Shown here: positions 19,683 through 32,378 of the stretch, one piece after another
How positions within the stretch are numbered: the first letter of the stretch is position 1
How the letters are laid out: each line of letters opens with the position of its first letter
IMG/VR virus record: IMGVR_UViG_3300035670_000750
Location: 1-34,958 of that record
Source of the DNA: a virus
Length of the DNA: 34,958 bases
Reading direction: 5' to 3' (one strand)
Translations under genes and position numbers: made by a program
Notes under the pieces: generated by a model
Seen by the model: only the letters and a program-made list of their open reading frames with translations
Databases searched by the model: none
Told to the model about the DNA's origin: nothing

Positions 19683-20110
19683 GCCAGGAACAAAGCGCCT
19701 TCCGCTTCACGCCTGCGTGTCAAACCATTCAGGACTTTTCCACCAGCCTTGTTCCAGCGGAGCAATTGGGCGGGAACGGCTTCATAGTCGCCTTGATTGA
19801 GAAGCTTCAAGAGGGTGGACGATTTGAAGGCCGCTTCACCCACGTTGAAGGTGAAGCATACCAAGGCGGCAAACTGGTTATCGGTTAGGGGAACCTTCAC
19901 AGATGCTTCAACGCAACGTTCAAAGCGTTGAAGATCGGAACGAAGGAGGGTTTCCGCCTCGCGTTCCGTGATGGTCATTCCCGGCTTTACGTGTTGGCCG
20001 GTTGATCCATAGCCGATTGTGAGGATGCCAGCCGGGCAAAGGTAGGCTTTGAGTTCAATACCTTCAAAGTTTTTGAGTAGGTCAATTCCCTTCTGATTGA
20101 TGACGCGCAT
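19679..20110 (-). CDS. Endolysin, T4-type lysozyme (GH24)
   Basis: 143 residues, normal length for a phage lysozyme. It hydrolyses the MurNAc-GlcNAc bond of peptidoglycan. The catalytic triad is E16 (NFEGIELKAY), C25 in place of the usual Asp (YLCPAGILTIGYGST) and T31, with E-8-C-5-T spacing as in P1/P21-type lysozymes. FTFNVGEAAFKSSTLLKLLN and the C-terminal RRxAEGALF motif complete the domain. There is no signal-anchor, so it needs a holin. It is on the strand opposite to the holin genes. The ATG has no ribosome site and lies 8 bases downstream of a terminator hairpin (20119-20144). Confidence 0.93.
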   Translation of the reverse strand: MRVINQKGIDLLKNFEGIELKAYLCPAGILTIGYGSTGQHVKPGMTITEREAETLLRSDLQRFERCVEASVKVPLTDNQFAALVCFTFNVGEAAFKSSTLLKLLNQGDYEAVPAQLLRWNKAGGKVLNGLTRRREAEGALFLA

Positions 20111-20118
20111 AAGATAAA

Positions 20119-20144
20119 ACCCGCAACTTGTGGAAGTTGCGGGT
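20119..20144. terminator. Bidirectional terminator between lysozyme and integrase
   Basis: Perfect 11-bp stem (20119-20129 with 20134-20144), loop GTGG. On the - strand it is followed by TTTATCTT and then the lysozyme ATG; on the + strand by ATTTATC. It should stop integrase transcripts before the lysozyme gene and rightward transcripts that run antisense through lysozyme. ATAAATA overlaps its base on the - strand. Confidence 0.8.
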
Positions 20145-20183
20145 ATTTATCTCCGTCATAAAGACGGCGTTTTGTATGCGTGA

Positions 20184-21614
20184 TTAGTTTGGTTTCGGAA
20201 TATCAACGTCAAAGGTGATGCGGTCCAGCCATTCCTTTAGCGTTGCGACTTCGTGACCGTCACCATAGGAATCGTGAACATCCTTAGATGCGTGCCCCAT
20301 AAGGCGCTTGCCGATTTCACGGTCAATCTTGTGCCTGCGGATGGCATCGCGGAAGGTATGGCGGAAGGAATGAAACACCTTGTCAGCATTGGTGATGCCC
20401 ATTACCTCGCGTTGTTCCCCCCACCACGTTGAGAAGTATTGCGCGGAAGTGTAGGTTGGGAACAGACGGGTTTCACCGGCTTCCTTTACCGCCTCATAAT
20501 GTTTGAGGAAGCCAAGTTCAATAAGGTGGCGATGAATTGGAACCTGACGGACTGAAGACTTGTTCTTAACGCGCTTCACAACCTTACCCGCATCATTGGT
20601 TTTGCGGATATGGAAATACCAAATACCATCAACCTGTTTCACGTCTTCAACCAGCATATTGCCGATTTCACCACTGCGAGCGCCGGTATAAAGGGCAATG
20701 GCAGGAAGCCATTGGCGATGGTTCCAAGTGGGTTCACGGAATGCAGGATGGGCGAAGATACCTTTTAGGTCCGCAAGCGTGTATGCGGGGCGCGTTTCCT
20801 CGGTATCAATCCTAATCTTGCAAATACCGGAAGAGGTTGGATCGTCTTCACGGTCGCCGTTGCGAACCGCGTATTTCAGGACGGCGGAAATAGCGGCAAG
20901 ATACTGTTTGAGCGTCTTGGGGCTGATTGGGGTGAACTTGGTGGTTCGTTCTGGATTGGCATATTCCTTGCGCGCATATTCAAGGGTCTTGTGAACTCCA
21001 TCCTCACGCATCTTCTTCGTGGTGGCGGAAGGATAGTCAACGATAGCGCGCTTGAAATCTCTAATCATCGCAATGGTTGGAAGCTTAATGGAATGATCCA
21101 GCGTTAATCCGCTGAACTCGCAGAATAGCGCCCAATGCTTCCGATATTTGAAGGCGGTTTCCTCTTCAATGTTTTGTTCACGAACATAGGCATCAAACAC
21201 AGCGTTGATGGATTCCCCCTTGTTGGTGGTGGGGGCCTTGCGTGTGATGGGGAGGGATGCAGGGGCGGGGGCTTCATCCTGCGGGGGAGTGAAGCCGTAG
21301 TTGATGGAGATAAAGAAATCATCCTGCGGGATCGTTAGGGGGATGTGCCCCATATTGATCCTGATAGCGCCATCCTGGGGATTCGCTTTGGCGTGTTCCC
21401 GTTTGGCGTGGTCAATGAGTTTTTCGGCTTCGTGGGCAACCTCAATATGAATGCGCTTGGCATCACTGAGGTTCTTGGTGCGAAGGCTGAAAATCAGTTC
21501 GCGCTTTCCCGTGTGGGGTTCGGGAAGGTAGGGGCGTAAGTGTTCAGGAACGCCCTTGCGGTAACGGTAAACCCCGGATTTGGGGTGACGATCCATATTC
21601 ATCTTAGCGGCCAT
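20184..21614 (-). CDS. int: Tyrosine-recombinase integrase
   Basis: 476 residues from ATG 21614. The N-terminus (HPKSGVYRYRKGVPEHLRPYL) is the short arm-type domain found at the start of many proteobacterial phage integrases. A SAM-like core-binding domain spans about residues 155-275. The catalytic domain has all expected residues: Arg in LYTGARSGEIGNM, a Lys-bearing hairpin before SSVRQVPIH, H-S-F-R in HSFRHTFRDA, His in LMGHAS and the nucleophile Tyr in VHDSYGDG. It integrates and, with a helper, excises the genome. The reading frame continues 70 codons upstream to 21824, but that part is Gly-rich repeat and GGGG at about 9 bases before 21614 supports the shorter start. Confidence 0.93.
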   Translation of the reverse strand: MAAKMNMDRHPKSGVYRYRKGVPEHLRPYLPEPHTGKRELIFSLRTKNLSDAKRIHIEVAHEAEKLIDHAKREHAKANPQDGAIRINMGHIPLTIPQDDFFISINYGFTPPQDEAPAPASLPITRKAPTTNKGESINAVFDAYVREQNIEEETAFKYRKHWALFCEFSGLTLDHSIKLPTIAMIRDFKRAIVDYPSATTKKMREDGVHKTLEYARKEYANPERTTKFTPISPKTLKQYLAAISAVLKYAVRNGDREDDPTSSGICKIRIDTEETRPAYTLADLKGIFAHPAFREPTWNHRQWLPAIALYTGARSGEIGNMLVEDVKQVDGIWYFHIRKTNDAGKVVKRVKNKSSVRQVPIHRHLIELGFLKHYEAVKEAGETRLFPTYTSAQYFSTWWGEQREVMGITNADKVFHSFRHTFRDAIRRHKIDREIGKRLMGHASKDVHDSYGDGHEVATLKEWLDRITFDVDIPKPN

Positions 21615-21616
21615 CT

Positions 21617-21850
21617 TTGTATCCCCGTTTTGTATCACCAGCCCCCTCGGAAGCCAAGGGAAACCGGGCATTTCCGGTGATACAGCCGCTTTTTTCGTGC
21701 CTACGCCTCCACCTCCATTTCCACCTCCAATTCCACCTCCAGTTCCACCAACGGGTGGTAACTCGTTGATTTCTTTGGAGAAAAAGACTTTGGGCAAAAA
21801 CGGGCGAAAACGGCTTTGTATCACCTTGCCAGGGCTAAACGTGTATCATC
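21617..21850. promoter_or_regulatory. Candidate attP arm region with TGTATC boxes
   Basis: Just upstream of the integrase start, five TGTATC-type boxes occur: about 21618, 21630, 21676 (inverted), 21816 and 21842; four read TGTATCA(C/T)C and one TGTATCCC. Between them lies a 12-bp tandem repeat. Clustered short repeats beside int are typical of arm-binding sites of tyrosine integrases. I could not find a core or a tRNA-like target. Confidence 0.4.
21709..21749. repeat. 12-bp tandem repeat (CCACCTCCANTT)
   Basis: Three full units at 21709-21720, 21721-21732 and 21733-21744, differing at two positions, plus a partial fourth. If translated on the - strand it would give Gly-rich GGTGGGIGGGNG as an N-terminal extension of the integrase. 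I regard it as noncoding. Confidence 0.8.
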
Positions 21851-21884
21851 TTGGCGGCTATCCTGTCCATAGCGGGTAGGGGCG

Positions 21885-22166
21885 TCAGTGGTTGGCGTAT
21901 GGGCCGGTGCGGTTGCGAATGGCGCGGATGGTGTGCGGCTTACACCCCACCTTGGGCGCGAGAACCGTAGCGGGTTCCTTACTGGTGCGAATGTAGGCGA
22001 TCACTTCCGGGTCATTGATCTTCGGAAGCCTCCCCCGTGCCCGCTTGTTCTTATAATACACCACACCAGCACTGAGGTTTTGCAAGTCTATAAGTCCGCT
22101 CCCCTTGGTCCAACCGTCCTGCGGACCAAGTGATTTCAAAATGCGCTCAAACTGTGCTTTGTTCAT
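21885..22166 (-). CDS. Small helix-turn-helix protein (regulator or excisionase candidate)
   Basis: 93 residues. Residues 55-86 (NDPEVIAYIRTSKEPATVLA, then KVGCKPHTIRAIRNR) fit a helix-turn-helix: helix, short turn with VGCK, and a basic recognition helix. The start at 22166 is chosen over the longer frame because the extra 74 codons cross a hairpin-rich region and the terminator. GGGA lies about 9 bases upstream. It precedes int on the same strand, the usual place for an excisionase or a lysogeny regulator. A 7-bp palindrome (22182-22199) just upstream could be its operator. No CI or Cro family was recognised. Confidence 0.65.
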   Translation of the reverse strand: MNKAQFERILKSLGPQDGWTKGSGLIDLQNLSAGVVYYKNKRARGRLPKINDPEVIAYIRTSKEPATVLAPKVGCKPHTIRAIRNRTGPYANH

Positions 22167-22181
22167 TCGTGAATCCCATTC

Positions 22182-22199
22182 AATACACTTCCGTGTATT
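22182..22199. promoter_or_regulatory. Palindrome upstream of the HTH gene
   Basis: AATACAC / GTGTATT (22182-22188 with 22193-22199), perfect, 4-base gap. On the - strand it overlaps the end of a CTAAATA motif. It may be an operator or an RNA hairpin that controls the HTH gene. Confidence 0.4.
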
Positions 22200-22209
22200 T
22201 AGATTTTTC

Positions 22210-22345
22210 TTGACGTGCCGGGGGTGCTGTGGTAGTAAGGGCGTCGGAATGTCCCCATCCGGGGCGGGTGTTGCTACCACCCGAAGGAACCCAGCTTCCT
22301 TCCTTCCTTCACAGTCAAAGGGCGCGGAGCAATCCGCGCCCTTTG
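22210..22345 (+). ncRNA. Possible small RNA between the HTH gene and the small-gene operon
   Basis: TTGACG (22210-22215), a 17-base spacer and TAGTAA (22233-22238) resemble a promoter on the + strand. The transcript would contain a GTGGTAG / CTACCAC inverted repeat (22229-22235 with 22274-22280) and end at the 13-bp hairpin at 22316-22345. No gene is encoded. The -10 is poor, so this is tentative. Confidence 0.3.
22316..22345. terminator. Terminator at the end of the leftward early operon
   Basis: Perfect 13-bp stem CAAAGGGCGCGGA / TCCGCGCCCTTTG (22316-22328 with 22333-22345), loop GCAA. It lies just past the stop of the last small gene on the - strand. T-tracts on either side are weak. Confidence 0.7.
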
Positions 22346-22350
22346 TTCGT

Positions 22351-22641
22351 TCAAGCATCCTTCTTCGTGATGGCGTCACACGCCTCAATCACTCCCTTGG
22401 TAGCTTCCTGGCGTGCTTTGAATGCCTGGATGACCTCAAAGTGACGCAAGCGCGCCTCAACCTCTTCCATCGTTTCCCGTCTAAATCCAAACAACATTCC
22501 GCCGGTTGGAACATAGCGGGGAAGCGTTGGGTCTTCCTCGCAACGCTTGTTGTATTCACGCCACTCATTATTTCGCTGTTTCGCTTCTTCGGCCTCACGC
22601 TGTTTCCTCTCTTTCCACGCATTCATAATCTTCTTAAACAT
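22351..22641 (-). CDS. Small charged coiled-coil protein
   Basis: 96 residues. The first 35 are highly charged helix (MFKKIMNAWKERKQREAEEA), then a PRYVPTGG turn and a second helix. No family recognised. ATG 22641 is chosen because GAGGAG is about 9 bases upstream; the frame opens at a TTG just before. It is the last gene of the overlapped leftward operon. Confidence 0.7.
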   Translation of the reverse strand: MFKKIMNAWKERKQREAEEAKQRNNEWREYNKRCEEDPTLPRYVPTGGMLFGFRRETMEEVEARLRHFEVIQAFKARQEATKGVIEACDAITKKDA

Positions 22642-22643
22642 AA

Positions 22644-22862
22644 TCAAATCTCCTCAATTGAATATCCAGTTACGTTATTTTCAAAACGTTTGCGGGCAAC
22701 CAACCAGTTCACCTTGCAATCCGTTTCCATCGTGCAAATGTCCAAATGTTCCGCCGTATACCAACACGCCTCAATTTCGTGTCTCTCGGTCCACTGGCGG
22801 AAAGCCTCCTTCGTGGCGTCATCCTCGGTGGGATGGAAGGTTAGGTGAACGATGTAGTTCAT
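22644..22862 (-). CDS. Small hypothetical protein of the early operon
   Basis: 72 residues (MNYIVHLTFHPTEDDATKEA). An alpha/beta-looking small protein with two cysteines (ACWYTAEHLDICTMETDCK has three). No family recognised. Its ATG overlaps the previous stop by 4 bases (ATGA), so it is translationally coupled. Confidence 0.75.
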   Translation of the reverse strand: MNYIVHLTFHPTEDDATKEAFRQWTERHEIEACWYTAEHLDICTMETDCKVNWLVARKRFENNVTGYSIEEI

Positions 22863-23110
22863 TCGCCACCTTCCATCTTAAGCTTCGCCAAAACCAAATC
22901 TTCACCGTCATACCAAGCGTAAGCCAATTGAATCATTTGGGTGAGGGTGTCCTTCCATTCGCGGTTCAGCGCCTCATAACTCTCAAACCAGTCCTTGGCT
23001 TGGGGGCAACCGCGCTTCGCCTCAAGTTCATCCCTCACAATGCGATAGGCGCGGGCATCAATGACGAACCGGCGAAGCGCCTTCAACATAGCCTCATCGT
23101 TCTTGGTCAT
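22859..23110 (-). CDS. Small hypothetical protein of the early operon
   Basis: 83 residues, helical, mixed charge (KNDEAMLKALRRFVIDARAY, then WKDTLTQMIQLAYAWYDGED). No family recognised. ATGA overlap at its start with the upstream gene and another with the downstream gene. Confidence 0.75.
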   Translation of the reverse strand: MTKNDEAMLKALRRFVIDARAYRIVRDELEAKRGCPQAKDWFESYEALNREWKDTLTQMIQLAYAWYDGEDLVLAKLKMEGGE

Positions 23111-23424
23111 TCGCCACCACCCCCGCCGCTATCGGAGCCGCAGTCAGACCCACAGGACGAATAAGGACCGGAACCCGATGATCCGCGCTTGGGCCTTGGT
23201 TGGTAGGGTTCCGGCTTCGGTGGTTCCGCACTACGTTCAATGTGTCCGCACTTCACACATTCCTGTTCAACAAAGTGGATCGGCATTTCAAAGAACCTCT
23301 CCAATGCTGGATTGTTCGTGAAGTCATATCTCGTCAAATCCATTCCCATCACCAACCAGAACGCATAACGGCTTCCATAATAGCGGCTCGTTAGCGTGGT
23401 GAAGGAGTGGTCACACTCCTTCAT
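23107..23424 (-). CDS. Small zinc-ribbon-like protein
   Basis: 105 residues. C4 and H6 (ECDHSF) with C56-x-x-C59 (EQECVKCGH) can form one metal site, a pattern common in small phage zinc-ribbon proteins. The C-terminus is Pro-rich and then Ser/Gly/Cys-rich (SSCGSDCGSDSGGGGGE). It may bind nucleic acid or host RNA polymerase, as some such phage proteins do; this is not shown here. ATGA overlaps on both sides. Confidence 0.72.
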   Translation of the reverse strand: MKECDHSFTTLTSRYYGSRYAFWLVMGMDLTRYDFTNNPALERFFEMPIHFVEQECVKCGHIERSAEPPKPEPYQPRPKRGSSGSGPYSSCGSDCGSDSGGGGGE

Positions 23425-23660
23425 TCAAACACCTCAAAGTAACGCTTCTTCAAAAACTCAATCATACCCAACAGTTCAAGCATATTCTCGCCATCAACAA
23501 CAACGTGAACGTTTTCGTCTTCTGTTGTGTAGGATGCTGCGATTGACTTTACCTCACCGGCTTCAAGGCGTTCCAACAGAGTGTGCAAACCCGCAATCAA
23601 ATCCGGGTTCACTTCCCGCTTCTGTGGCTTCGTGGGGATCAGGGTGAATACGTTATCCAT
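23421..23660 (-). CDS. Small hypothetical protein of the early operon
   Basis: 79 residues from ATG 23660 (MDNVFTLIPTKPQKREVNPD). The pattern is strand, helix (LIAGLHTLLERLEAGEVKS), then strands with a conserved-looking ENVHVVVDGENMLELLGMIEF. The start overlaps the upstream stop by 8 bases; the junction is identical over 16 bases to the one at 23864-23871. No family recognised. Confidence 0.72.
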   Translation of the reverse strand: MDNVFTLIPTKPQKREVNPDLIAGLHTLLERLEAGEVKSIAASYTTEDENVHVVVDGENMLELLGMIEFLKKRYFEVFE

Positions 23661-23871
23661 TGTTCTTCTCCATACCAAACAGAGTGCGCAGATTGCGCAT
23701 AAAGATGATTCTGTCAGTGTTGATGTGATGACCGTAATGCGCGCCTACCGTCTCAGGGCTGTTGGTGGTAAGCATATCATCCTTCATACGTTCAAGGACT
23801 CGCGCCTCTTCCACAAGATGAGCGCGAACGGTTTCAATAAGCTTCGTTACGTCAATGTTGCTGTTATCCAT
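23653..23871 (-). CDS. Small hypothetical protein of the early operon
   Basis: 72 residues (MDNSNIDVTKLIETVRAHLV). Helical, ending in GMEKNNG. The start overlaps the upstream gene by 8 bases; AAGGATAAGAAC upstream serves as the ribosome site. The ends KNNG and the MDN starts are shared with the neighbouring gene, so a short duplication may have built this junction. Confidence 0.72.
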   Translation of the reverse strand: MDNSNIDVTKLIETVRAHLVEEARVLERMKDDMLTTNSPETVGAHYGHHINTDRIIFMRNLRTLFGMEKNNG

Positions 23872-24067
23872 TGTTCTTATCCTTCAAATCGTCATTAGCC
23901 AAATCAACAATAGCGGCGATACGTTCAACGATACTCTTATAATCCGGCTCACCCCTATACAGCGGTTTCGGGCTGGTGCCATCTGAAACAACCAGCACAG
24001 GAGCCTTGTAGATATGATAATCGGCCAATGCCTTGTTGATGTGAGTGAGATACTTTTCCATATTCAT
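23864..24067 (-). CDS. Small hypothetical protein of the early operon
   Basis: 67 residues from ATG 24067 (MNMEKYLTHINKALADYHIY). AAGGAGG lies 6 bases upstream of this ATG; another ATG (24073) abuts the ribosome site and is less likely. Helix, then a strand (APVLVVSDGTSPK), then helix. It ends DKNNG. No family recognised. Confidence 0.72.
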   Translation of the reverse strand: MNMEKYLTHINKALADYHIYKAPVLVVSDGTSPKPLYRGEPDYKSIVERIAAIVDLANDDLKDKNNG

Positions 24068-24078
24068 AATCATCCTCC

Positions 24079-24390
24079 TTAAAAAATACCTTGTAGGTCT
24101 TCATATTCCGGGTTGTTGATGACCGGCCTTACCTTCTTCGCCAACTCATCATCAATCCGCTTGGTCAAATCCTCAATCAACGTCACCTCAACGCGGTTGG
24201 ACGCTTCGGGCAGGCAATCGCAGGCGCGTTGGCGCAGCGTGAGAAGCGTTGCGGAAGGTACGGATGTGCGGTCCTTATGATTGGAATAATAGTTGGCGGC
24301 ACAGCCGATGACGTTGGTTGAGAAATCCGCCTGTGTACGGACCTTCCCCAAAATGCGGAAGGTCAGATAGGCGCGTTCAAGAATGTTCAT
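24079..24390 (-). CDS. Early protein with putative DNA-binding helices (DUF6626-like)
   Basis: 103 residues. The segment GKVRTQADFSTNVIGCAANY followed by YSNHKDRTSVPSATLLTLRQ resembles, from memory, a family of small proteins in alphaproteobacteria and their phages (R-T-Q-x-x-F-S, then Y-Y/F-S-x-x-K). Some look like a helix-turn-helix. It is the first gene of the leftward operon, behind a promoter-like sequence and a strong AAGGAGG. It may be a regulator; function unknown. Confidence 0.72.
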   Translation of the reverse strand: MNILERAYLTFRILGKVRTQADFSTNVIGCAANYYSNHKDRTSVPSATLLTLRQRACDCLPEASNRVEVTLIEDLTKRIDDELAKKVRPVINNPEYEDLQGIF

Positions 24391-24415
24391 TGGAAACCTC
24401 CTTTGTTGATAAAGT

Positions 24416-24444
24416 TATTTATCATCGGTCGGAGGAAAAACCTC
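24416..24444 (-). promoter_or_regulatory. Promoter of the leftward early operon
   Basis: On the - strand: TTGAGG, a 17-base spacer, GATAAA (inside ATAAATA), then about 25 bases to the ATG at 24390. This fits a sigma-70 promoter for the eight-gene operon. It lies back to back with the promoter at 24484-24512, so the two control regions are divergent. Confidence 0.55.
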
Positions 24445-24483
24445 AAAATGGGGTGAAAATGGTTAAATTCAAGAATGTTTTCC

Positions 24484-24512
24484 TTGACAGGTTGGAAGGA
24501 AAGGTGTATGGA
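24484..24512 (+). promoter_or_regulatory. Promoter of the 24567 gene
   Basis: TTGACA (24484-24489), 17-base spacer, TATGGA (24507-24512). A strong -35 and fair -10. The start of transcription would be about 24519, so the repeated hairpin element at 24517-24554 lies in the 5' leader. Confidence 0.65.
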
Positions 24513-24516
24513 TAGA

Positions 24517-24554
24517 TCATCGCAACCGGATTGGAAGGTCAATCCACGTAAGTG
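24517..24554 (+). repeat. Copy A of a 38-base hairpin element
   Basis: Matches 25118-25155 at all but about 4 positions. It carries the stem GGATTG / CAATCC with a 6-base loop and the tail CACGTAAG. It lies in the 5' leader of the gene at 24567, just before its ribosome site. Confidence 0.85.
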
Positions 24555-24566
24555 AGGATAAACAAT

Positions 24567-25085
24567 ATGGGACAGGCTAAGATTAAGCGTATGCAGGGTA
24601 AGGTGACGAACACCATCAAGTATGATGGTCGTCAGGTTGTTTTTGTTGATAACTCGGAGGCGAAGCAGTATGCCGTTCCGGCTCCGGGGTTCCCTGCAAC
24701 GGTGTTCCGTGCAAGCCCGGAAAGCAAGGATGCGTTCCATAACAACATTGAAGGTGTGATGAGCGTTCAAATCTTCCTGGCCGGGAACAACACCTACATT
24801 CCGAGTTGGTGTATGGATACGGAACTTGGGTTGTCGTATTACCCAGGAAAGGCGATGAGTGGGAAGGTGATGGATGAGTGGTGCATTCATTCAACCCACC
24901 TTGGGAACGAAGTGCAGATTTTTTATGCGGGTCGTTTGCCGAGCGAGAAGTTGGCGAAGGAAATCATTACGAAGGTTGCGCTTGCATTGATGGACAAAGG
25001 ACACAACCTCCTTACGATGTTTGGTGGGCGTGTTGCCGTTATGAAGGCACCCGTTCCCCTTGGCTATTCGGCAAACATCTTTTAA
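24567..25085 (+). CDS. Hypothetical protein with its own promoter and terminator
   Basis: 172 residues. The N-terminus is basic (MGQAKIKRMQGKVTNTIKYD), the centre has strands (VMSVQIFLAGNNTYIPSWCM) and NEVQIFYAGRLPSEKLAKEI, and the C-terminus is LTMFGGRVAVMKAPVPLGY. No family recognised. It is the only rightward gene in this region, flanked by two copies of a hairpin element and closed by its own terminator. That isolation is typical of a gene expressed in the lysogen or in the first minutes of infection. ATG 24567 follows GTGAGG by about 10 bases. Confidence 0.75.
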   Translation: MGQAKIKRMQGKVTNTIKYDGRQVVFVDNSEAKQYAVPAPGFPATVFRASPESKDAFHNNIEGVMSVQIFLAGNNTYIPSWCMDTELGLSYYPGKAMSGKVMDEWCIHSTHLGNEVQIFYAGRLPSEKLAKEIITKVALALMDKGHNLLTMFGGRVAVMKAPVPLGYSANIF

Positions 25086-25117
25086 GGGGGTTTAAATGCT
25101 GAACCGTTAGGGTTTCA

Positions 25118-25155
25118 TCATTGCAAACGGATTGAAAGGTCAATCCACGTAAGAG
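25118..25155 (+). repeat. Copy B of the 38-base hairpin element
   Basis: Same GGATTG / CAATCC stem and CACGTAAG tail as 24517-24554, here 33 bases after the stop codon. The intervening gene is therefore bracketed by two almost identical RNA hairpins. Confidence 0.85.
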
Positions 25156-25158
25156 ACA

Positions 25159-25197
25159 AGGGGCCGGGTAACACCGGCCCTTCTCATTTTTTTATTG
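25159..25197 (+). terminator. Terminator after the 24567 gene
   Basis: Stem GGGCCGG / CCGGCCC (25161-25167 with 25174-25180, extendable by two pairs), followed by TTCTCATTTTTTTATT. A classical rho-independent terminator. Confidence 0.85.
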
Positions 25198-25206
25198 GAG
25201 TGTATT

Positions 25207-25236
25207 TTGACAAATTCGGTTCCGTGAAGGTATGAT
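25207..25236 (+). promoter_or_regulatory. Promoter of the replication-operon leader
   Basis: TTGACA (25207-25212), 18-base spacer, TATGAT (25231-25236). One of the best sigma-70-like promoters in the window. Transcription would start near 25243, about 280 bases before the first gene of the operon. Confidence 0.7.
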
Positions 25237-25242
25237 TGCATA

Positions 25243-25508
25243 TGTCCGTTATTGAGTGGATGTGCGTTAAACAACAGGATGTGGGGCGGCGAAGAGAGTG
25301 GACCGTTTTTAGCCGCCCCATTATCTGCGGTTTTAATCTTTCAAGCGTTGCGGACTAAATAACTATGATCGGAGACTGAGCCTGGAAACGAAGTCACCAT
25401 AAGAGCGTAACGGACACGCCATTTCATTAACCGTGCCTATCATAACAGGCGTGTCCTATTAGACCCCCAACAGAGGCTTTCCAGGCTCACTCTGTTGGGG
25501 GTTTCTCA
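25243..25508 (+). ncRNA. Structured leader RNA with terminator, replication operon
   Basis: A gene-free stretch of about 265 bases with four perfect helices. Stem A is TGGGGCGGC / GCCGCCCCA (25282-25290 with 25312-25320). Stem B is 9 bp (25412-25420 with 25448-25456). Stem T is a 13-bp terminator stem (25463-25475 with 25490-25502) followed by TTCTCATTTT. Helix U pairs 25377-25388 with 25478-25489, that is with 12 of the 14 bases of the stem-T loop. U is completed before the right arm of T is made, so it could act as an antiterminator, or form a pseudoknot. The gene start at 25524 lies right after the terminator. I did not recognise a known riboswitch class. Confidence 0.65.
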
Positions 25509-25512
25509 TTTT
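25463..25512 (+). terminator. Terminator in front of the replication operon
   Basis: Perfect 13-bp stem (25463-25475 with 25490-25502), 14-base loop, then TTCTCATTTT. Its position between promoter and first gene implies regulated read-through. Confidence 0.85.
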
Positions 25513-25523
25513 GGAGGTTTGTG

Positions 25524-25835
25524 ATGGGTAAACGAAAAATCAGGGTTAACAATCCCGAGTTCACTCCCGAGATTGAACGGGATTGGGTCAGGGTTTGGTA
25601 TCCGTATGACGAAAATGCATTTACGGATGTTGTTCTGTCGCTATTGGAGCGCAACGACTGTGTGGTGATTGGGCGAGGGGCGCAGATTAAAAGCCTGAAA
25701 AGACTGTTCAGCGTAACCATTCGGCTTCGGTTGATGGATGTGTTACCAGATTGCCCGCACGAATTGGGCGTTGAGGTTTATTTCAAGGAACTTTCAGAAG
25801 CCGTGTTGTTCAAGCTGACGTATGGAGGTGGGTGA
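25524..25835 (+). CDS. Small FKLT-motif phage protein, paralogue 1
   Basis: 103 residues. The C-terminus (YFKELSEAVLFKLTYGG) matches those of the genes at 25835 and 32729. Proteins with an F-K-L-T-x-G-G end after an acidic E-A-x-L segment are, from memory, common in phages and of unknown function. The N-terminal half is basic, then WVRVWYPYDENAFTDVVLSL. The start ATG follows GGAGG by about 7 bases and comes right after the leader terminator. First gene of the replication operon. Confidence 0.75.
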   Translation: MGKRKIRVNNPEFTPEIERDWVRVWYPYDENAFTDVVLSLLERNDCVVIGRGAQIKSLKRLFSVTIRLRLMDVLPDCPHELGVEVYFKELSEAVLFKLTYGGG

Positions 25836-26089
25836 TGGAATGGACGCCTTCACGCCTTTATAAAGAGCTTATGAGCAAGAAATCATACGATGATATGGAG
25901 AGAGTTGACGTTATAGGAACATTGAGGGTTGGTGGTTGGTATATGCTGAATAAAGAGAGGCGAGATTGGATTGAGGAACACGTTTCCGCTGGCGAGTGTG
26001 AGATTGATTACTACATTCGCGTTCCGTTTGTACGTTTCGCCAATGTTGATGATGAGTTGTTGTTTAAACTGACATTGGGAGGTGTCTAA
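25835..26089 (+). CDS. Small FKLT-motif phage protein, paralogue 2
   Basis: 84 residues, ending RFANVDDELLFKLTLGG, which aligns without gaps to the C-termini of the proteins at 25524 and 32729. The rest differs (SRLYKELMSKKSYDDMERVD, then WIEEHVSAGECEIDYYIRV). ATG 25835 overlaps the previous stop by one base; GGAGG is 6 bases upstream. Its stop overlaps the primase ATG (TAATG), so it is coupled to replication. Confidence 0.75.
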   Translation: MEWTPSRLYKELMSKKSYDDMERVDVIGTLRVGGWYMLNKERRDWIEEHVSAGECEIDYYIRVPFVRFANVDDELLFKLTLGGV

Positions 26090-27027
26090 TGAGGTGGTCA
26101 TATGTGAAAAGCTTCTATAGCGCGAAGGCTCAGAAATGGGTTCCAGCCGCGCACTTGGTTTCCAACCGGGAAAGCACGGATTGGAACGCCTTCGTGGTGG
26201 AAATGATTGGGATGTGGGAAGCCCCCCAGGAAGAGAAGGCCAAGGCCGATCTTGTCAGCCCTGCCTTCTATGGCGGCAACCAGTACCGCAAGGATGAGAA
26301 CGTTCTTGGGTGGGATATGTTGTTCTTGGACGTGGATAACGATGACCCATCTAAATACCTCAGTCACGCGGGGATGATGGAGTTCCTTGGGGCCTTCGGG
26401 CTGAACTTCCTCATCTACAACAGCCCCTCATCTACGGTGGATGCGGAGCGTTATAGGGTGGTGATCCCACTGAGCCGCACGGTTGATGCGGATGAGGTGA
26501 AGCCCTTGTGGAAGGCGATGTGGCAATTCACCGGGGGCTTGGGTGATCCAGCCTGTAAGGACCGCTCACGGGCCTATTACGTGCCCGGTCAGTATCAGGG
26601 GTGTGATAGCCCCTTCATTGAGGGAGAGGTGAACGGCAAGCCCCTGGATGTGGATTGGTTGATTGGGGCCTATCCTCCCCCGGCTCCGGTGGTTCCCCAG
26701 GCGGCGCAGGAAACGGAAGGGATGGATGGGTTTAGGGACAAACTCGTTAAGGCGTCCGTCAAGGCGTATCACCGGGGGATTTTTGATAGCAACCTTGTGA
26801 CCAAGACCATCTTGGAAGATTACACGTCTAACAAGGCCGGTAGCTATCACCTGGGAATGTATACGGCATTGTGCCGCATCGCAGGACGGGCAAAGACGAT
26901 GGGTTATCCGTTGACGGAAGCGGAGTTGTTCCAGATTGCCCGTGAGATTGATTTTTATGATGGTGGTTTTTATTCAGACGAAAAACTTAGAGCCGAAGCG
27001 AAAGACGCTATGGCGTATGTGTTTTAA
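26089..27027 (+). CDS. Archaeo-eukaryotic primase (AEP)-like replication protein
   Basis: 312 residues. The N-terminal domain carries AEP-type signatures: MLFLDVDNDDP with D81 and D83 as likely metal ligands, LIYNSPSSTVDAERYRVVIP near 108-127 (the S-x-x-x-x-x-x-x-R-Y/x-R-V/h-V-I/h-P-L motif of primase-polymerases from plasmids and phages) and CKDRSRAYYVPGQYQG near 156-171. The C-terminal 100 residues are helical. Such proteins prime DNA synthesis at plasmid-type origins with a helicase. The start overlaps the previous stop. A helicase follows after a 12-base gap. No separate DNA polymerase exists in the genome. Confidence 0.8.
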   Translation: MRWSYVKSFYSAKAQKWVPAAHLVSNRESTDWNAFVVEMIGMWEAPQEEKAKADLVSPAFYGGNQYRKDENVLGWDMLFLDVDNDDPSKYLSHAGMMEFLGAFGLNFLIYNSPSSTVDAERYRVVIPLSRTVDADEVKPLWKAMWQFTGGLGDPACKDRSRAYYVPGQYQGCDSPFIEGEVNGKPLDVDWLIGAYPPPAPVVPQAAQETEGMDGFRDKLVKASVKAYHRGIFDSNLVTKTILEDYTSNKAGSYHLGMYTALCRIAGRAKTMGYPLTEAELFQIAREIDFYDGGFYSDEKLRAEAKDAMAYVF

Positions 27028-27039
27028 GGAGGATTGATT

Positions 27040-28521
27040 ATGAAGTGTGGAGTTGATTCAAACATTTTCAGCAAGTACGAATTCAACGATCAGGCTTGGG
27101 GTGATCCCTTGAAGCCGGGTCACAATGAGTTGTGGTGCTATCTGGCCCAAATCTGTGTCGCTAAGGCGAACGGTGGGTTCTCGGTCAAGGATAAGGTGAC
27201 TGGACGGTTCACCGAAGTGAGTAGTGCCAAGCTGGCTATCAACAAACTGACGAACGAATGGGCCGGTATGGTGACGCTAAAGAGCGGTGCCAAGCAGGTT
27301 GTGACCAGAAAGGAAATGGAAGAGTTCGTCAATACCGTGTGCCCGATCTTGGAACAGACCGTGTGCATTCCGTTCGCAGAACCGTTCTTGGTCTTCAATG
27401 CCACCAAGCGCCTAAACACCTTCGTGGACACAATCAAGCGCCCGGTGGAAGGAAATGTGGTCTATCTGGAAGAGTTCTTGCGGATGATCCGTCAGGCATT
27501 GTGCGCCCAGGAAGGTGAAAAGACGCTTGAGGAAATGATTGACGAAATCAACAACCCCAATGGCTCTAAGGAATTTCGTTTCGTCATCCACTGGTTGGCG
27601 GCGATCTACCAGAACCCAGGCATCAACCTTCAAACCAATATGTGGTTGGTCGGTCGGATGAAGGGCATTGGTAAGGGTACGTTGATGCGCGTCCTGGCGG
27701 GGATGTTCGGTTGCCTGATGGGCAAAGCCTCGCAATCCGATATGGAACGCGGTTGGAATGACTTCGTAGAGGGCAAGCTGATTGTGGAGGCGGATGAGTT
27801 CAAGGCTACCAGTAAGGTGGACTTCAACGCCCTGATTAAGAGGGATACCACCAACCCAACAATCTCAATCGCCAAGCGTGGCGTTACCCCCTATGTGGTG
27901 CCCAACATCACGAATTGGATTTTCACCACGAACGATGAAGAGCCGATCATTCTGGAAGATGATGATAGGCGTAACGTGATGATTAAGACCACCACGGATA
28001 GTGCGTGGAGAGAACGAAGCATCCGTTTCAATCTGTGGCTGGATGAAGACGGCAATATGATGAAGGTCGTTACCGGCTTTGCAGCACTCTTGAATAACGT
28101 GGTGGTGGATAAGGTGTTGATCCAAAGGGCGTTTGAAACTGAGTTGCGTAAAGATATGCGCGATAGCAGCAAGAATGCCGTTGAGGTTTGGGTTGAAACC
28201 CATATGGACAATCGTTTCCGTGGTCGGGAAATGACGCCGGAAGAGTTGTATGCCGATTATTTCGCCCCGTGGGCTGCGGTCTACTATGAGAACACCTCTA
28301 TCAAGTCCGCGAAGGCGTTGGGTAAGGCACTCACTGCCCTCACGGGTATGGATGGGATGGTGAGTAAGCGCCGTGCCAATTCAGGTATCCGCTACACCAT
28401 CGCCCCGGTTGACATTGAGTATGAAGGCGAGGTTACGACTGATTGGAAGGCCAATGCCTGTAGGGTCGGATATGACAAAGTGACGGATTTGAACGCCATT
28501 CGTCGCAGATTGAGGGATTGA
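27040..28521 (+). CDS. SF3-type replicative helicase (P4/D5-like)
   Basis: 493 residues from ATG 27040, 8 bases after AAGGAGG. Walker A is GRMKGIGKGT (about 205-214), Walker B is KLIVEADEF (about 246-254), and motif C is NWIFTTNDEEP with sensor N298. An arginine finger DDDRRNVM follows at about 307-314. The K-x-D-T-x-N-P region between them (ALIKRDTTNPTISIAKRGV) is characteristic of phage/plasmid primase-helicases of this group. It should unwind the origin in the 3'-5' direction as a hexamer. The primase-like partner is immediately upstream and the putative origin immediately downstream. Confidence 0.88.
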   Translation: MKCGVDSNIFSKYEFNDQAWGDPLKPGHNELWCYLAQICVAKANGGFSVKDKVTGRFTEVSSAKLAINKLTNEWAGMVTLKSGAKQVVTRKEMEEFVNTVCPILEQTVCIPFAEPFLVFNATKRLNTFVDTIKRPVEGNVVYLEEFLRMIRQALCAQEGEKTLEEMIDEINNPNGSKEFRFVIHWLAAIYQNPGINLQTNMWLVGRMKGIGKGTLMRVLAGMFGCLMGKASQSDMERGWNDFVEGKLIVEADEFKATSKVDFNALIKRDTTNPTISIAKRGVTPYVVPNITNWIFTTNDEEPIILEDDDRRNVMIKTTTDSAWRERSIRFNLWLDEDGNMMKVVTGFAALLNNVVVDKVLIQRAFETELRKDMRDSSKNAVEVWVETHMDNRFRGREMTPEELYADYFAPWAAVYYENTSIKSAKALGKALTALTGMDGMVSKRRANSGIRYTIAPVDIEYEGEVTTDWKANACRVGYDKVTDLNAIRRRLRD

Positions 28522-28724
<203 letters not shown>

Positions 28725-28937
28725 ATGAGAGACAATGAGTTGACAAGGGCCTTCGGGGCAAGGTTCTACCAAGCCGCCAGGATAGCCGCGAAGGTCAGGA
28801 AAGCCCACCGGGCACGAACCTTTGAGGAAGTGGAGGCCGCAGCCCAAGCATTCAATGCGGCGGTTCTGGCAAAGGTAGATTGGGACATAAAGAACCAACA
28901 GTTAAATATTGAGATTTCAGATGAGGATGTGGTATAA
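28725..28937 (+). CDS. Small hypothetical protein after the origin
   Basis: 70 residues, helical and basic in the first half (RDNELTRAFGARFYQAARIA and KVRKAHRAR), acidic at the end. It could bind DNA but has no recognisable motif. ATG 28725 follows GGAG by about 12 bases. Its stop lies in a TATAAATAA sequence that may be the -10 of the next leader. Confidence 0.6.
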   Translation: MRDNELTRAFGARFYQAARIAAKVRKAHRARTFEEVEAAAQAFNAAVLAKVDWDIKNQQLNIEISDEDVV

Positions 28938-28938
28938 A
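28910..28938 (+). promoter_or_regulatory. Promoter of the TerS leader
   Basis: TTGAGA, an 18-base spacer and TATAAA, followed at once by TAATACT. A fair sigma-70-like match, located at the end of the small gene. Transcription would start at about 28946 and meet the terminator at 29043-29075. Confidence 0.5.
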
Positions 28939-28940
28939 TA

Positions 28941-29169
28941 ATACTGTGAATGAGGTGGTTGTTGTTCTGAGCTTTTCAAAACCTCGTTCTCTTCAAGCGG
29001 TATTGGGACAAGTACGTTAGTTTGAATCAAATCCTCCCTAAGACCCCCAGGTTCCTCCAAGCCTGGGGGTTTTTCTTTGTAAAACGCTAAATTGTGCCCC
29101 GTTTACGCTAAATAGGAAGGAAGAAAAAACGCAAATTGCGTACACGCACTTTTTACAGGGAGTGATTTA
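28941..29169 (+). promoter_or_regulatory. Gene-free TerS leader with internal terminator
   Basis: About 230 bases without a gene except a possible 6-codon ORF (MRWLLF). It contains a GAGGT / ACCTC pairing in the first 60 bases, the terminator at 29043-29070, TAAATA at 29109-29114 and GCAAATTGCG. It mirrors the replication-operon leader: promoter, structured RNA, strong terminator, then genes. Late genes may be switched on by antitermination here; this is inference. Confidence 0.5.
29043..29077 (+). terminator. Terminator upstream of TerS
   Basis: Perfect 9-bp stem ACCCCCAGG / CCTGGGGGT (29043-29051 with 29062-29070), loop of 10, followed by TTTTCTTT. A strong rho-independent terminator. Confidence 0.85.
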
Positions 29170-29814
29170 ATGGCGGATTTCAGGGATGAAGATGAGAGAA
29201 AGCCTCTCAGGATCGGCGGGAAGATTGGTGAGAAGCTGATTGAAACAGCCGAAATGTTGGGTGTTTCGCCCAAGGATGTGCCGATTTCTGAAAATGGTGA
29301 GATTGAGATTTCGGAAGCAACATTTCGCCCACCTGTTAAGAAGGGTTTGCCTCGCGGAAAGCCCTTTGAGAAGGGTAGTGCCCCCGCTGGCCCTGGTCGC
29401 CCGAAGGGTGTTAGCAACCGTGCAACAATGTTGAAGGACAAATACGAGGCATTGGGTTTTGATCCGGTTGTGAAGTTGGTCAAGTTGCAGAATAAGAAGG
29501 CGTTGACCAAGGATGACAAGATTAAGGGTGATTGGTGTTTGGCGATGATTTCCCACGCCTATCCGAAATTGAAGCAGATTGAAAGCCATTCCACGGAAGA
29601 CAAATCAATGACTATTACGTGGAACATTCCTGAACCTACGGCTATTCAAATTCAGATGATGGAAACGGAAATGGGATTGATTGAAAGTCCGTCTGCCGAT
29701 AACGGCGGCGGCATTATTGATGCTGACATTTTGGAAAATGAAGAAAGTGGTGAGCGTCTGCCGATAAAGGAGGATGATGATGAGCGTTCACCGTCTGCCG
29801 ATAGTGATGATTAA
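29170..29814 (+). CDS. terS: Terminase small subunit (TerS)
   Basis: 214 residues. The N-terminus is acidic and basic mixed (DEDERKPLRIGGKIGEKLIE). A linker PPVKKGLPRGKPFEKGSAPAG leads into the GPGRPKGVSNRATMLKDKYE motif typical of podovirus small terminases. A helix with GDWCLAMISHAYPKLKQIES then corresponds to the usual A-P-Y-x-H-P-K-L-x-x-x-E segment. The tail is acidic with repeated SPSADN/SPSADS. TerS binds the genome at the packaging site and recruits TerL. TerL is about 3.2 kb downstream, separated by the - strand operon, an unusual split. The start follows AGGGAGTG. Confidence 0.75.
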   Translation: MADFRDEDERKPLRIGGKIGEKLIETAEMLGVSPKDVPISENGEIEISEATFRPPVKKGLPRGKPFEKGSAPAGPGRPKGVSNRATMLKDKYEALGFDPVVKLVKLQNKKALTKDDKIKGDWCLAMISHAYPKLKQIESHSTEDKSMTITWNIPEPTAIQIQMMETEMGLIESPSADNGGGIIDADILENEESGERLPIKEDDDERSPSADSDD

Positions 29815-30000
29815 ATGTTTGAGTTGAAGTTGAGGGATTGGGACAAGTGGTTGCCGATCCTGATTGTTGAGTTGGACGCCAAGCCGTCGGGGCTTTCAGG
29901 GGGATTGAGGAAGCATCACCCCTCATTGCTATTGGGTCTTGTGATGGAACTTATGCGTATGAAGGTAGTGGGGAAGGTTGGACCGATAGAGCCGTTTTAA
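29815..30000 (+). CDS. Small hypothetical protein after TerS
   Basis: 61 residues (MFELKLRDWDKWLPILIVEL). The centre is Gly/Ser/His, the end helical (LLGLVMELMRMKVVGKVG). The ATG directly follows the TerS stop (TAAATG) without a good ribosome site; AAAGGAGG at 29766-29773 would rather serve a 17-codon ORF that ends at 29827. Coupled translation is likely. No family recognised. Confidence 0.5.
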   Translation: MFELKLRDWDKWLPILIVELDAKPSGLSGGLRKHHPSLLLGLVMELMRMKVVGKVGPIEPF

Positions 30001-30053
30001 AGGCCAAGGAGTGCCCTGAAATAGTTTTGGGGTAGTGGGGTAGCGGAAACGAG

Positions 30054-30100
30054 AAAGGCCCCTCAGAGGGCCTTAAATCGCCTCTGAGGGGCCTTTTGGA
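30054..30100. terminator. Bidirectional terminator between convergent units
   Basis: Perfect 15-bp stem (30054-30068 with 30082-30096), loop of 13, T-tract on the + strand (CCTTTTGG) and a matching GAAA on the other side. It ends both the TerS unit and the leftward resolvase unit. Confidence 0.85.
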
Positions 30101-30110
30101 TTGGAGGGTA

Positions 30111-30782
30111 TCAGGATCGTGAAAGGATGCGTTGAACGGCGGTTGGATGCCACTGACCACCACGGGGAGTTTGGATGCCCCTACGGTTCAGTTCCTTAGC
30201 AATGCCGGTGTTGGAGGTGAAGCCCTCATCCTTCAACTGGCTCAGGATCGGCGCGAGGGCCGCCGCGAAAGCATCCGCCTTCTCCTGACGAACCTTCACA
30301 CTCTTGGTGGCTGCGTCCGCTGCGTGGGGCACCAGCCGCGTTGATCCCTTGGGGGAACCCAACTGGACACCACGGGCCTTCGCAGCCCGTAGCGCAGCCC
30401 CGGTGCGTTCACTGATTGCTTTGGCTTCGTGTTCAGCCACAGCCGCCAGGATGTGAACGGTCAACCTATTAGCGTTGGGCATATCGCAAGCCGTGAACTC
30501 AACTCCACTGTCCATAAGGTTTGCGATGAAGGCAACATTACGCGCCAACCTATCCAGCTTGGCGATGAGCAACGTTGCCCCGTGCATCTTGGCAACGTTG
30601 ATAGCCTTCAACAATTCGGGTCTATCGGCTTTCTTACCACTCTCAACCTCAACAAACTCACCAACCAGTTCAGAACCTCCGTTGATGAATCTCTTCACGG
30701 CTTCCTTCTGAGCGTCCAATCCAAGACCGGAACGCCCTTGCTTGTCCGTACTGACACGGTAGTAGGCTGCGTATCGGCGCAT
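30111..30782 (-). CDS. Serine recombinase (resolvase/invertase family)
   Basis: 223 residues. The catalytic domain reads YYRVSTDKQGRSGLGLDAQ with nucleophile S11 and R9, then LLIAKLDRLARNVAFIANLM (the D-R-x-x-R motif), EFTACDMPNANRLTVHILAA and the E-helix AEHEAKAISERTGAALRAAK. The C-terminus (TSNTGIAKELNRRGIQTPRG and GGQWHPTAVQRILSR) is the usual Hin/resolvase-like DNA-binding helix-turn-helix. It could resolve genome dimers made by plasmid-like replication, or invert a segment; no inverted crossover sites were found. It closes the leftward operon. Confidence 0.92.
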   Translation of the reverse strand: MRRYAAYYRVSTDKQGRSGLGLDAQKEAVKRFINGGSELVGEFVEVESGKKADRPELLKAINVAKMHGATLLIAKLDRLARNVAFIANLMDSGVEFTACDMPNANRLTVHILAAVAEHEAKAISERTGAALRAAKARGVQLGSPKGSTRLVPHAADAATKSVKVRQEKADAFAAALAPILSQLKDEGFTSNTGIAKELNRRGIQTPRGGQWHPTAVQRILSRS

Positions 30783-30885
30783 AGCGGCACCCCCTCACAA
30801 GAACCACAAGGAACGTTGTGGTTAATGTGACCCTCCCGTTCCCAGGCGTCAAGCCCCCACGGAGTTCCGGGGGTTGACAAAGAAG

Positions 30886-30914
30886 AAGGCCCCCAGGACG
30901 CGCCTGGGGGCCTT
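30886..30914 (-). terminator. Terminator after the 150-residue gene
   Basis: Perfect 12-bp stem (30886-30897 with 30903-30914), 5-base loop. On the - strand it is followed by CTTCTTTGTC. It lies 28 bases past the stop of the gene at 30943 and upstream of the recombinase, which therefore needs read-through or a weak promoter (TTGACG near 30846 on the - strand). Confidence 0.8.
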
Positions 30915-30942
30915 GTGAGGCTTGGAGAAGGATGGGGAGGGG

Positions 30943-31395
30943 TTAGGCGGCTTTGCCCTTACCCTTGCCCCTGCGGCCCTGTAGGCGGGCGCTGATAGCC
31001 TGGAACGCCTCTTCCACGGCTTGGACCAAGGCCGGTTCCTTGGCGTCCGCAGCCGCCTTGATCGTGTTGAGAACCTTTTCCACGTCTTCCAGGGTCTTGC
31101 CCGCGTTGATGACGTTCCGATGTTCCGCCTTGGGATCGGGGTTCAGGTTCACCGGCTGTGTGCCGTAGTTGACCCACACAGCGAACAGACCTTGGCGGTT
31201 CTTCAAGTACCACAGGCGCGGAGCGCGCCCGGAACCCGTGGTGATGGGGTTCCCCGAAATCTGCATCTTCACATAGGCCAACTGAGTTTCCACACCCTTG
31301 GTGAATTCCTTCATCGGGTCTTTCTTCACACCCGCCGAACCCGTGGGCTTGGCAATGTCAACGAAGTTCAGGGTGCCCAACAGAGATTTGGTCAT
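30943..31395 (-). CDS. Hypothetical protein with basic tail
   Basis: 150 residues. The N-terminus (MTKSLLGTLNFVDIAKPTGS) precedes a charged helix, a central aromatic segment (RAPRLWYLKNRQGLFAVWVN), a helical region (KTLEDVEKVLNTIKAAADA) and a lysine-rich end (GRRGKGKGK) that suggests nucleic-acid binding. No family recognised. The start follows AAGGAGAG, the same leader type as its neighbours. The largest protein of the operon, and the one most likely to be a regulator or replication accessory. Confidence 0.75.
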   Translation of the reverse strand: MTKSLLGTLNFVDIAKPTGSAGVKKDPMKEFTKGVETQLAYVKMQISGNPITTGSGRAPRLWYLKNRQGLFAVWVNYGTQPVNLNPDPKAEHRNVINAGKTLEDVEKVLNTIKAAADAKEPALVQAVEEAFQAISARLQGRRGKGKGKAA

Positions 31396-31416
31396 TGCTA
31401 CTCTCCTTCACAGGCG

Positions 31417-31434
31417 GAACCTATCGCGGTTCCG
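31417..31434 (-). other. Hairpin between small genes
   Basis: GGAACC / GGTTCC (31417-31422 with 31429-31434), loop of 6. It lies in the leader of the gene at 31395. Confidence 0.6.
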
Positions 31435-31482
31435 TGATCTAATCGTTATGCCATCATTCCAACCTTGTCAATGATAAAATGG

Positions 31483-31507
31483 GGAAGCTTATCGCCTCCC
31501 CATTTCG
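31483..31507 (-). other. Hairpin after the 56-residue gene
   Basis: AAATGGGGA / TCCCCATTT stem with an 11-base loop, at about 31478-31506, just past the stop at 31508. It may end or stabilise the mRNA. Confidence 0.55.
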
Positions 31508-31678
31508 TCAATGTGTCAGGACACTTCCGGGCATCCTATCGGCATAATCCCTCGCATCCTGATAGGTGGAAAACTGCGAAACGGAGCCGTTCCGTTCCCA
31601 CACGCGGAACTTACCGTCCGCTTGCCTGCCATCCTTCACGTTCAAGACGATGGCAAAGCCGAAAACACGCAACGTCAT
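31508..31678 (-). CDS. Small protein, 56 residues (short gene)
   Basis: 56 residues from ATG 31678: MTLRVFGFAIVLNVKDGRQ then FRVWERNGSVSQFSTYQDAR and a DRMPGSVLTH end. It looks like a small beta-rich fold with an aromatic turn. A second in-frame ATG at 31687 would add three residues. Neither has a ribosome site; the ATG is 7-16 bases past an 11-bp hairpin. Real by its amino-acid composition and place in the operon; no family recognised. Confidence 0.6.
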   Translation of the reverse strand: MTLRVFGFAIVLNVKDGRQADGKFRVWERNGSVSQFSTYQDARDYADRMPGSVLTH

Positions 31679-31685
31679 TGTGAAC

Positions 31686-31714
31686 ATATGAGGGGGTTGT
31701 TAGCCCCCTCATAT
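31686..31714 (-). other. 11-bp hairpin between small genes
   Basis: Perfect stem ATATGAGGGGG / CCCCCTCATAT (31686-31696 with 31704-31714), loop of 7. It separates the gene at 31718 from the 31678 start. The ATG at 31687 lies in its stem, so the hairpin would block that start. Confidence 0.75.
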
Positions 31715-31717
31715 CCC

Positions 31718-31909
31718 TTAGTAGGCAGGAACGCGAACGGTTCCGTTGAAGTTGAACATTCCGACCTTCGCGGTATATGCGCCGATCTTTTGGCGCGTCT
31801 TGCGAAGAACGAAAGCCGTAAACGTTTCCATCATCTTCGGGTGTTTCATAAACACCGTTTGGTGAAAGATGACTTGTCCACCCGCATAGATGCAGATTTC
31901 TACGTTCAT
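31718..31909 (-). CDS. Small hypothetical protein, 63 residues
   Basis: 63 residues: MNVEICIYAGGQVIFHQTVF, then KMMETFTAFVLRKTRQKIGA and VGMFNFNGTVRVPAY. Strand-helix-strand pattern. No family recognised. The start overlaps the upstream 42-residue gene by 4 bases (ATGA). Confidence 0.72.
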   Translation of the reverse strand: MNVEICIYAGGQVIFHQTVFMKHPKMMETFTAFVLRKTRQKIGAYTAKVGMFNFNGTVRVPAY

Positions 31910-32034
31910 CGGCTTATCCCCACATAACAGCGAGTGTATCCAATCAACGGGAGAACCGTTGCCGTGCCCATCATTAGGGCGAACAGAACAACGTGTTCTT
32001 GCGCGTGCCCACTCTTACGAATGAAGTTACCCAT
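31906..32034 (-). CDS. Very small membrane protein, 42 residues
   Basis: 42 residues: MGNFIRKSGHAQEHVVLFAL then MMGTATVLPLIGYTRC. Residues about 15-34 form one membrane segment after a basic N-terminus. The start follows AAGGAAAG by a few bases, and the stop overlaps the next start. Small single-span phage proteins often act as superinfection-exclusion or toxin factors; nothing here proves that. Confidence 0.62.
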   Translation of the reverse strand: MGNFIRKSGHAQEHVVLFALMMGTATVLPLIGYTRCYVGISR

Positions 32035-32068
32035 TCTCTCTTTCCTTCACTTAAGGAAGGGAGGAAAG

Positions 32069-32088
32069 AGGGGGAGTTTCCTCCCCCT
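32069..32088 (-). other. GC-rich hairpin between small genes
   Basis: AGGGGGAG / CTCCCCCT (32069-32076 with 32081-32088), loop TTTC, within a wider imperfect stem. It lies just past the stop of the gene at 32097. Confidence 0.65.
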
Positions 32089-32096
32089 CCCGATGG

Positions 32097-32267: not shown

Positions 32268-32349
32268 CTATCCTTCTCCTTCACAGTTTTTAAAGAGCCG
32301 GAACCGTTCCCGGCTCCCGTCAGTCCGTTGCTACCGGCTGACAAGAACG

Positions 32350-32378
32350 CTTATATCCTTCCTCCTATCCGCTGTCAA
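32350..32378 (-). promoter_or_regulatory. Promoter of the leftward small-gene operon
   Basis: On the - strand: TTGACA (32373-32378 complement), exactly 17 bases, TATAAG (32350-32355 complement). The best promoter match in the window. Transcription would start near 32343. One copy of a 16-base purine-rich box lies in its spacer. Confidence 0.8.

Follow-up and report, generated by a model that had tools for sequence, protein, structure and literature searches.

In a temperate phage, the leader ahead of the DNA-replication genes contains a segment, here designated U, that is complementary to the loop of an intrinsic terminator located just before the first gene. Whether those genes are switched on is probably decided by RNA pairing. 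The reading we prefer is a transcription attenuator in which pairing between U and the terminator loop would drive read-through into the operon, and we give it a probability of about 0.5. We hold with more confidence than this that the pairing of U and loop has some function. The window analyzed is the entire 34,958-nucleotide stretch of DNA, IMG/VR record IMGVR_UViG_3300035670_000750.

Positions 1-138 and 34820-34958 carry the same sequence (97.8%, with the differences in a C-run), despite which IMG/VR records no end repeats, and the record in effect covers a whole genome of about 34.8 kb, circular or permuted. Among its genes are a tyrosine integrase and a serine recombinase, and the integrase marks the phage as temperate. 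The terminase resembles those of HTVC010P-type and Rhodoferax phages, and the nearest plasmid relatives of the serine recombinase occur in Alphaproteobacteria. The genome is that of a podovirus related to HTVC010P, probably with an alphaproteobacterial host. Among the ORFs scanned, which lie between 18.5 and 33 kb, no repressor gene was recognizable. An unrecognized DNA-binding protein is possible, for example the product of ORF103, the first gene of the leftward operon, which a single-sequence structure model renders as all-helical with low confidence.

Features of the leader and operon are collected in Table 1. Its promoter scores highest of six candidates found in the right-hand 15 kb (20000-34958). 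An earlier note, made from the letters of the sequence, had placed a primase/helicase operon 22 bases past the terminator stem; an operon does begin there, but ORF104 and ORF85 come first, and primase follows only at 26089. ORF104 may start at GTG 25521 or at ATG 25524, the latter being better spaced from GGAGG. The primase is a distant relative of the Vibrio phage V6Aob primase (about 30%), and the helicase has a weak match to the P4-family primase C-terminal model TIGR01613 (7.9e-5, below the model's cut-off). Directly after the helicase gene, at 28600-28650, lies a TAT/TTA-rich repeat, TATTATTATTATTATTATTATATATATATA, possibly an AT-rich origin.

Table 1. Features of the leader and the replication operon, in window coordinates.
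Feature	Position	Strand	Basis
Sigma-70-type promoter TTGACA-18-TATGAT, predicted start about 25242-25244	25207-25236	+	11/12 consensus
Strong leader hairpin 1, GGGGCGGC...GCCGCCCC, no T-run	25282-25318	+	inverted repeat; 25272-25330 folds at -26.8 kcal/mol
Weak hairpin GGAGACU/AGUCACC showing U in its loop	25371-25398	+	fold -6.2 kcal/mol
Segment U (core 25377-25388)	25373-25388	+	15/16 complementary to 25478-25493; duplex -24.6 kcal/mol
9-bp hairpin GGACACGCC, 27-nt loop, between U and terminator	25412-25456	+	perfect inverted repeat; P 0.99 in nascent folding
Intrinsic-terminator hairpin, 13-bp perfect stem, 14-nt loop	25463-25502	+	repeat search; fold -25.8 kcal/mol
Terminator-loop segment complementary to U	25478-25489	+	repeat search
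Shine-Dalgarno GGAGG (25513-25517) and start codon	25513-25526	+	sequence
ORF104, 104 aa, first gene of the operon, no family match	25521-25835	+	family searches
ORF85, 85 aa, no family match	25832-26089	+	family searches
DNA primase	26089-27027	+	PHROG primase 1.5e-27; tblastn
DUF5906/VapE-type helicase	27034-28521	+	PF19263 1.2e-13

The other elements described in the earlier note were all recovered: the promoter, the perfect terminator stem, the intervening 9-bp stem (25412-25420 with 25448-25456, 9/9) and the complement between U and the loop. In the terminator, ACCCCCAACAGAG (25463-25475) pairs with CTCTGTTGGGGGT (25490-25502) at 13 of 13 positions, by direct reading as well as by repeat search, and closes a loop of 14 nt, 25476-25489. 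A GC-rich perfect hairpin is followed, as in intrinsic terminators, by a T-rich tract, which here is interrupted (TTTCTCATTTT). The tail, TTCTCATTTT, recurs as an identical 10-mer behind a terminator at 25159-25182, and this common tail supports both hairpins as terminators. The core of U, TGAGCCTGGAAA (25377-25388), matches the loop segment TTTCCAGGCTCA (25478-25489) in 12 of 12 bases, and the pairing extends to 15 of 16 between 25373-25388 and 25478-25493, with a single C.C mismatch and with three pairs reaching into the top of the terminator 3' arm. No significant partner for U was found elsewhere in the leader.

Contiguous complements of this length are unusual. The loops of other terminator-like hairpins in the window find at most 8 contiguous complementary nt in the preceding 300 bases, the longest loop complement among 602 terminators in 2.63 Mb of other loci is 9 nt, and the best among 1344 general hairpins in 1.68 Mb is 10 nt. 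When random 14-mers of the genome were compared with their own 300 upstream bases, a complement of at least 12 was seen in 5 of about 34,500; with about 20 terminators, the chance for the window is therefore about 0.3%. The pairing is less striking by an energy criterion that allows bulges, under which about 3% of terminators, some 18 of 675 at -20 kcal/mol or better, equal or surpass the -20.8 kcal/mol of U with the loop. Those terminators are mostly GC-rich, and one other hairpin of the window also reaches this energy. A 153-nt segment has a folding z of -4.2.

The order of events claimed in the earlier note, with the U helix forming before the terminator is finished, agrees with the folding predicted for a lengthening transcript. 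U is predicted to be unpaired with a probability of 0.72-0.84 for RNA ends at 25440-25480, and of about 0.83 in the complete leader. The helix between U and loop reaches a predicted probability of about 0.86-0.89 in nascent folding for RNA ends at 25489-25499, and the terminator displaces it from 25500 on. About 14 nt of RNA sit inside the polymerase at the T-stretch, so that, with the enzyme at about 25508-25512, the decision should fall within the range that favors U. At equilibrium, the complete leader prefers the terminator over a forced U:loop helix by 8 kcal/mol, and the effect of U may therefore be small and kinetic only. Along nested paths, refolding from the U helix to the terminator has to cross 23-28 kcal/mol; since the model leaves out pseudoknotted intermediates, this value is an upper bound.

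The further claim that the two helices are mutually exclusive stands on geometry more than on shared bases, which are limited to three pairs. A-form geometry should leave no room for a 12-bp helix in a loop of 14 nt while the full stem is closed, and pairing of U should therefore delay or open the terminator. The exclusion would be mainly topological, and a partial kissing contact of 6-8 bp could coexist with an intact stem.

The attenuator would work as follows. Transcription of the leader would start at the promoter at 25207-25236. With the polymerase moving past the loop of the terminator, U (25373-25388) in the nascent RNA would pair with freshly made 25478-25493 before the 3' arm is free, and the full helix of 12-15 bp would exclude the full stem, with read-through into ORF104, ORF85, primase and helicase. 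Were U occupied or sequestered instead, the terminator would form and transcription would yield just a leader RNA of about 265 nt. Control of U would most likely be exerted by an RNA in trans, such as leader RNA that has been released and binds nascent leaders through its exposed loop or U, and such control would make the leader an RNA immunity or copy-control switch that works much like the leader of P4. In support of the attenuator are the unusually long complement, the predicted dominance of the U:loop helix in nascent RNA, and the strong promoter and replication operon that flank these elements, together with the guanidine-IV and P4 precedents, the temperate and in effect complete genome and the lack of a recognizable repressor among the ORFs scanned. 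Against it are the failure to find a relative that covers the leader and could show covariation, the equilibrium preference for the terminator, the interrupted U-tract, and a bulge-allowing energy that is only in the top 3%.

Several further features of the leader were observed. The 5' end of the transcript, 25243-25251, is complementary in 9 of 9 bases to 25408-25416, overlapping the 9-bp stem; this pairing is dominant solely when the RNA ends near 25420, being displaced afterwards, and it is possibly an extra switch or a chance match. A 38-codon ORF, 25242-25358, opens at the predicted transcription start and stops 12 bases ahead of the U hairpin. It is a possible leaderless leader peptide, with a codon score of -0.13 per codon (coding 0.46, out-of-frame -0.99). 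Rfam models found no family in the leader even at an E-value of 10, evident chance matches aside, and nothing in the window at gathering score.

Two kinds of known system, P4 and the guanidine-IV riboswitches, are closer parallels than pT181 and pIP501. In P4, as here, the leader belongs to the primase/helicase operon of a temperate element. The seqB segment (C4 RNA) of P4 has its complement in the loop of a perfect 9-bp hairpin (seqC) directly before the Shine-Dalgarno sequence, just as U has its complement in that of a perfect 13-bp hairpin in the same position, and the duplex energies are -23.5 kcal/mol for seqB:seqC and -24.6 kcal/mol here. An antisense segment and its target loop within one leader, ahead of a phage replication or antirepressor operon, is the layout of the C4/CI systems of P1, P7 and P4, and it is seen here too. 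However, P4 has two targets, the upstream seqA (isrK-like RNA, RF01394) and the downstream seqC, whereas here there is one; a second target upstream of U (25242-25368) was no better than in shuffled sequences, 252 of 300 of which were as good. The target hairpin here, unlike that of P4, is itself a strong terminator, and U lies in a small hairpin rather than in a C4 fold. Models for C4 (RF01695) and isrK do not hit 25150-25560 even at E=10, while the P4 immunity leader, as a positive control, yields both C4 RF01695 (74.9 bits) and isrK RF01394. Because the family model match, the second target and the isrK part are all missing, we do not claim C4 membership; the leader is P4-like in layout, with no sequence relationship.

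Guanidine-IV riboswitches resemble the leader in that the loop of an upstream hairpin pairs with a terminator loop, a loop-loop complement that is present here as well, and in them this kissing contact keeps the terminator stem from completing and so acts as an antiterminator that gives read-through (PMC7736828, PMC11611296). That contact needs guanidine, whereas the proposed pairing is of 12-15 bp and would need no ligand, and the gene context differs. Among the Rfam models searched, which may not include one for the conserved guanidine-binding motif, no riboswitch matched the leader at E<=10. In P4, by contrast, it is termination that results when CI RNA pairs with seqA and seqC (PMC4825925), so that the direction here could be the opposite one. 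These two precedents have opposite signs; on steric grounds we favor read-through for the leader.

The earlier note had inferred a replication-control attenuator and had cited plasmid replication genes of the pT181 and pIP501 type as known cases of control by mutually exclusive RNA helices. An attenuator is still the best reading, with the U:loop helix forming first in nascent folds, but the pT181/pIP501 models fit poorly. Those systems likewise place a replication gene under a leader terminator with an earlier competing RNA helix, and they combine a pre-emptor of the 5' arm with a counter-transcribed antisense RNA. The pT181 pre-emptor pairs with the terminator 5' arm (PMC5703833), whereas U matches the loop, and the only inverted repeat of the 5' arm here (25463-25475) is with its own 3' arm. 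An antisense RNA over U that blocks pairing and so causes termination would need a minus-strand promoter. The candidates within the leader are only weak extended -10 sites, of which TGTTATGAT (scan start 25466) would drive transcription over U; its score of 8, including the TG bonus, and its poor -35 put it at the level of other chance sites, and we consider this explanation improbable.

C4/CI antisense RNA is processed by RNase P to a stable RNA of about 70-80 nt. An analogous U RNA, cut from the leader, might bind the terminator loop in trans and promote termination, the sign opposite to that of the attenuator, and so silence replication in the lysogen. We rate this as unlikely, although it is the foremost of the rivals: P4 has the same gene class and the same order of antisense segment, loop-target hairpin, Shine-Dalgarno sequence and replication operon, its CI RNA does terminate by pairing with seqA and seqC, and no repressor is recognizable among the ORFs scanned. 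Weighing against it are the lack of any C4 or isrK match at an E-value of 10, where P4 yields both, the second target that was not found upstream of U, and the expectation that full-length loop pairing should hinder the stem rather than help it. A structured leader with a constitutive terminator, in which U and loop make a stabilizing kissing contact in a finished small RNA and do not control read-through, would fit a minimum-energy fold that leaves U and most of the terminator loop unpaired, as well as the room for a 6-8 bp contact beside an intact stem. However, such a terminator, 22 bases before the operon, would silence it, and in the stretch from the leader promoter to the start codon the plus-strand promoter candidates are weak (at most 8/12) and all upstream of the terminator; we think this quite improbable, if slightly less so than an antisense RNA over U. 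Least probable of all is that the 16-bp inverted repeat is a DNA feature, such as a protein-binding or recombination site, and its position in the loop incidental. The phage does encode a tyrosine integrase and a serine recombinase, but one copy of the repeat fills the terminator loop almost exactly, which is unexpected for a DNA site, and the genome holds no other exact copy, matches with two mismatches being near chance level.

Searches for relatives of the leader found none by blastn in 50,697 phage records. In IMG/VR, single-protein scans with the helicase and connector gave none, nor did an exact U pattern. The primase, terminase and helicase, used in alignment scans there, brought up only proteins 25-46% identical and no locus with the leader. 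The genome collection yielded one 25% primase match and plasmid records only weak primase matches, in both cases without the leader. The sole sister contig, L090/L175, with proteins about 23-68% identical, ends about 815 bases after its early-operon element, before the leader region. Finding no relative that covers the leader is not a negative result for covariation.

That early-operon element is one of a repeated type. A 49-nt element with the core TCATCGCAACCGGATTG-loop-CAATCCACGTA occurs twice in the window, 84% alike: at 24507-24555 in the ORF177 5' UTR, directly after a TTGACA/TATGGAT promoter, and at 25108-25156 in the ORF177 3' UTR, ahead of the terminator at 25159. The copy in the 5' UTR of the sister contig's early operon (L175:814-859, minus strand) is 88% alike over 43 nt. 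In the search of the window, no Rfam family matched the element at gathering score; it might be an RNA element, perhaps nut- or put-like, or an operator. The U hairpin was rejected as a copy (model score about 0 bits), as was a weak match of the element model in contig L171, which lies inside an ORF. In Moraxella phages and similar prophage contigs (L179:3744, L181:3429, L194, L197, L198, L200), a 16-bp terminator lies about 0.3 kb after a DUF5906-type gene, and 9 nt of its 19-nt loop have a complement upstream.

Carried further, the attenuator might be an immunity switch that runs on RNA alone, with no repressor, and that does not belong to the C4 family; we regard this extension as rather doubtful. 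Terminated leader RNA, which holds both U and its complement, would titrate U in new transcripts and so increase termination, a self-reinforcing lysogeny; on first infection U and loop would pair in cis and the replication operon would be read.

P4 and the P1/C4 family already provide cases of RNA-based termination control of phage replication, and guanidine-IV riboswitches a case in which contact with a terminator loop brings about read-through. If the attenuator is real, a ligand-free terminator-loop antiterminator in an HTVC010P-related podovirus, a group with few genetic studies, would join both principles, and would point to more than one origin of RNA immunity.
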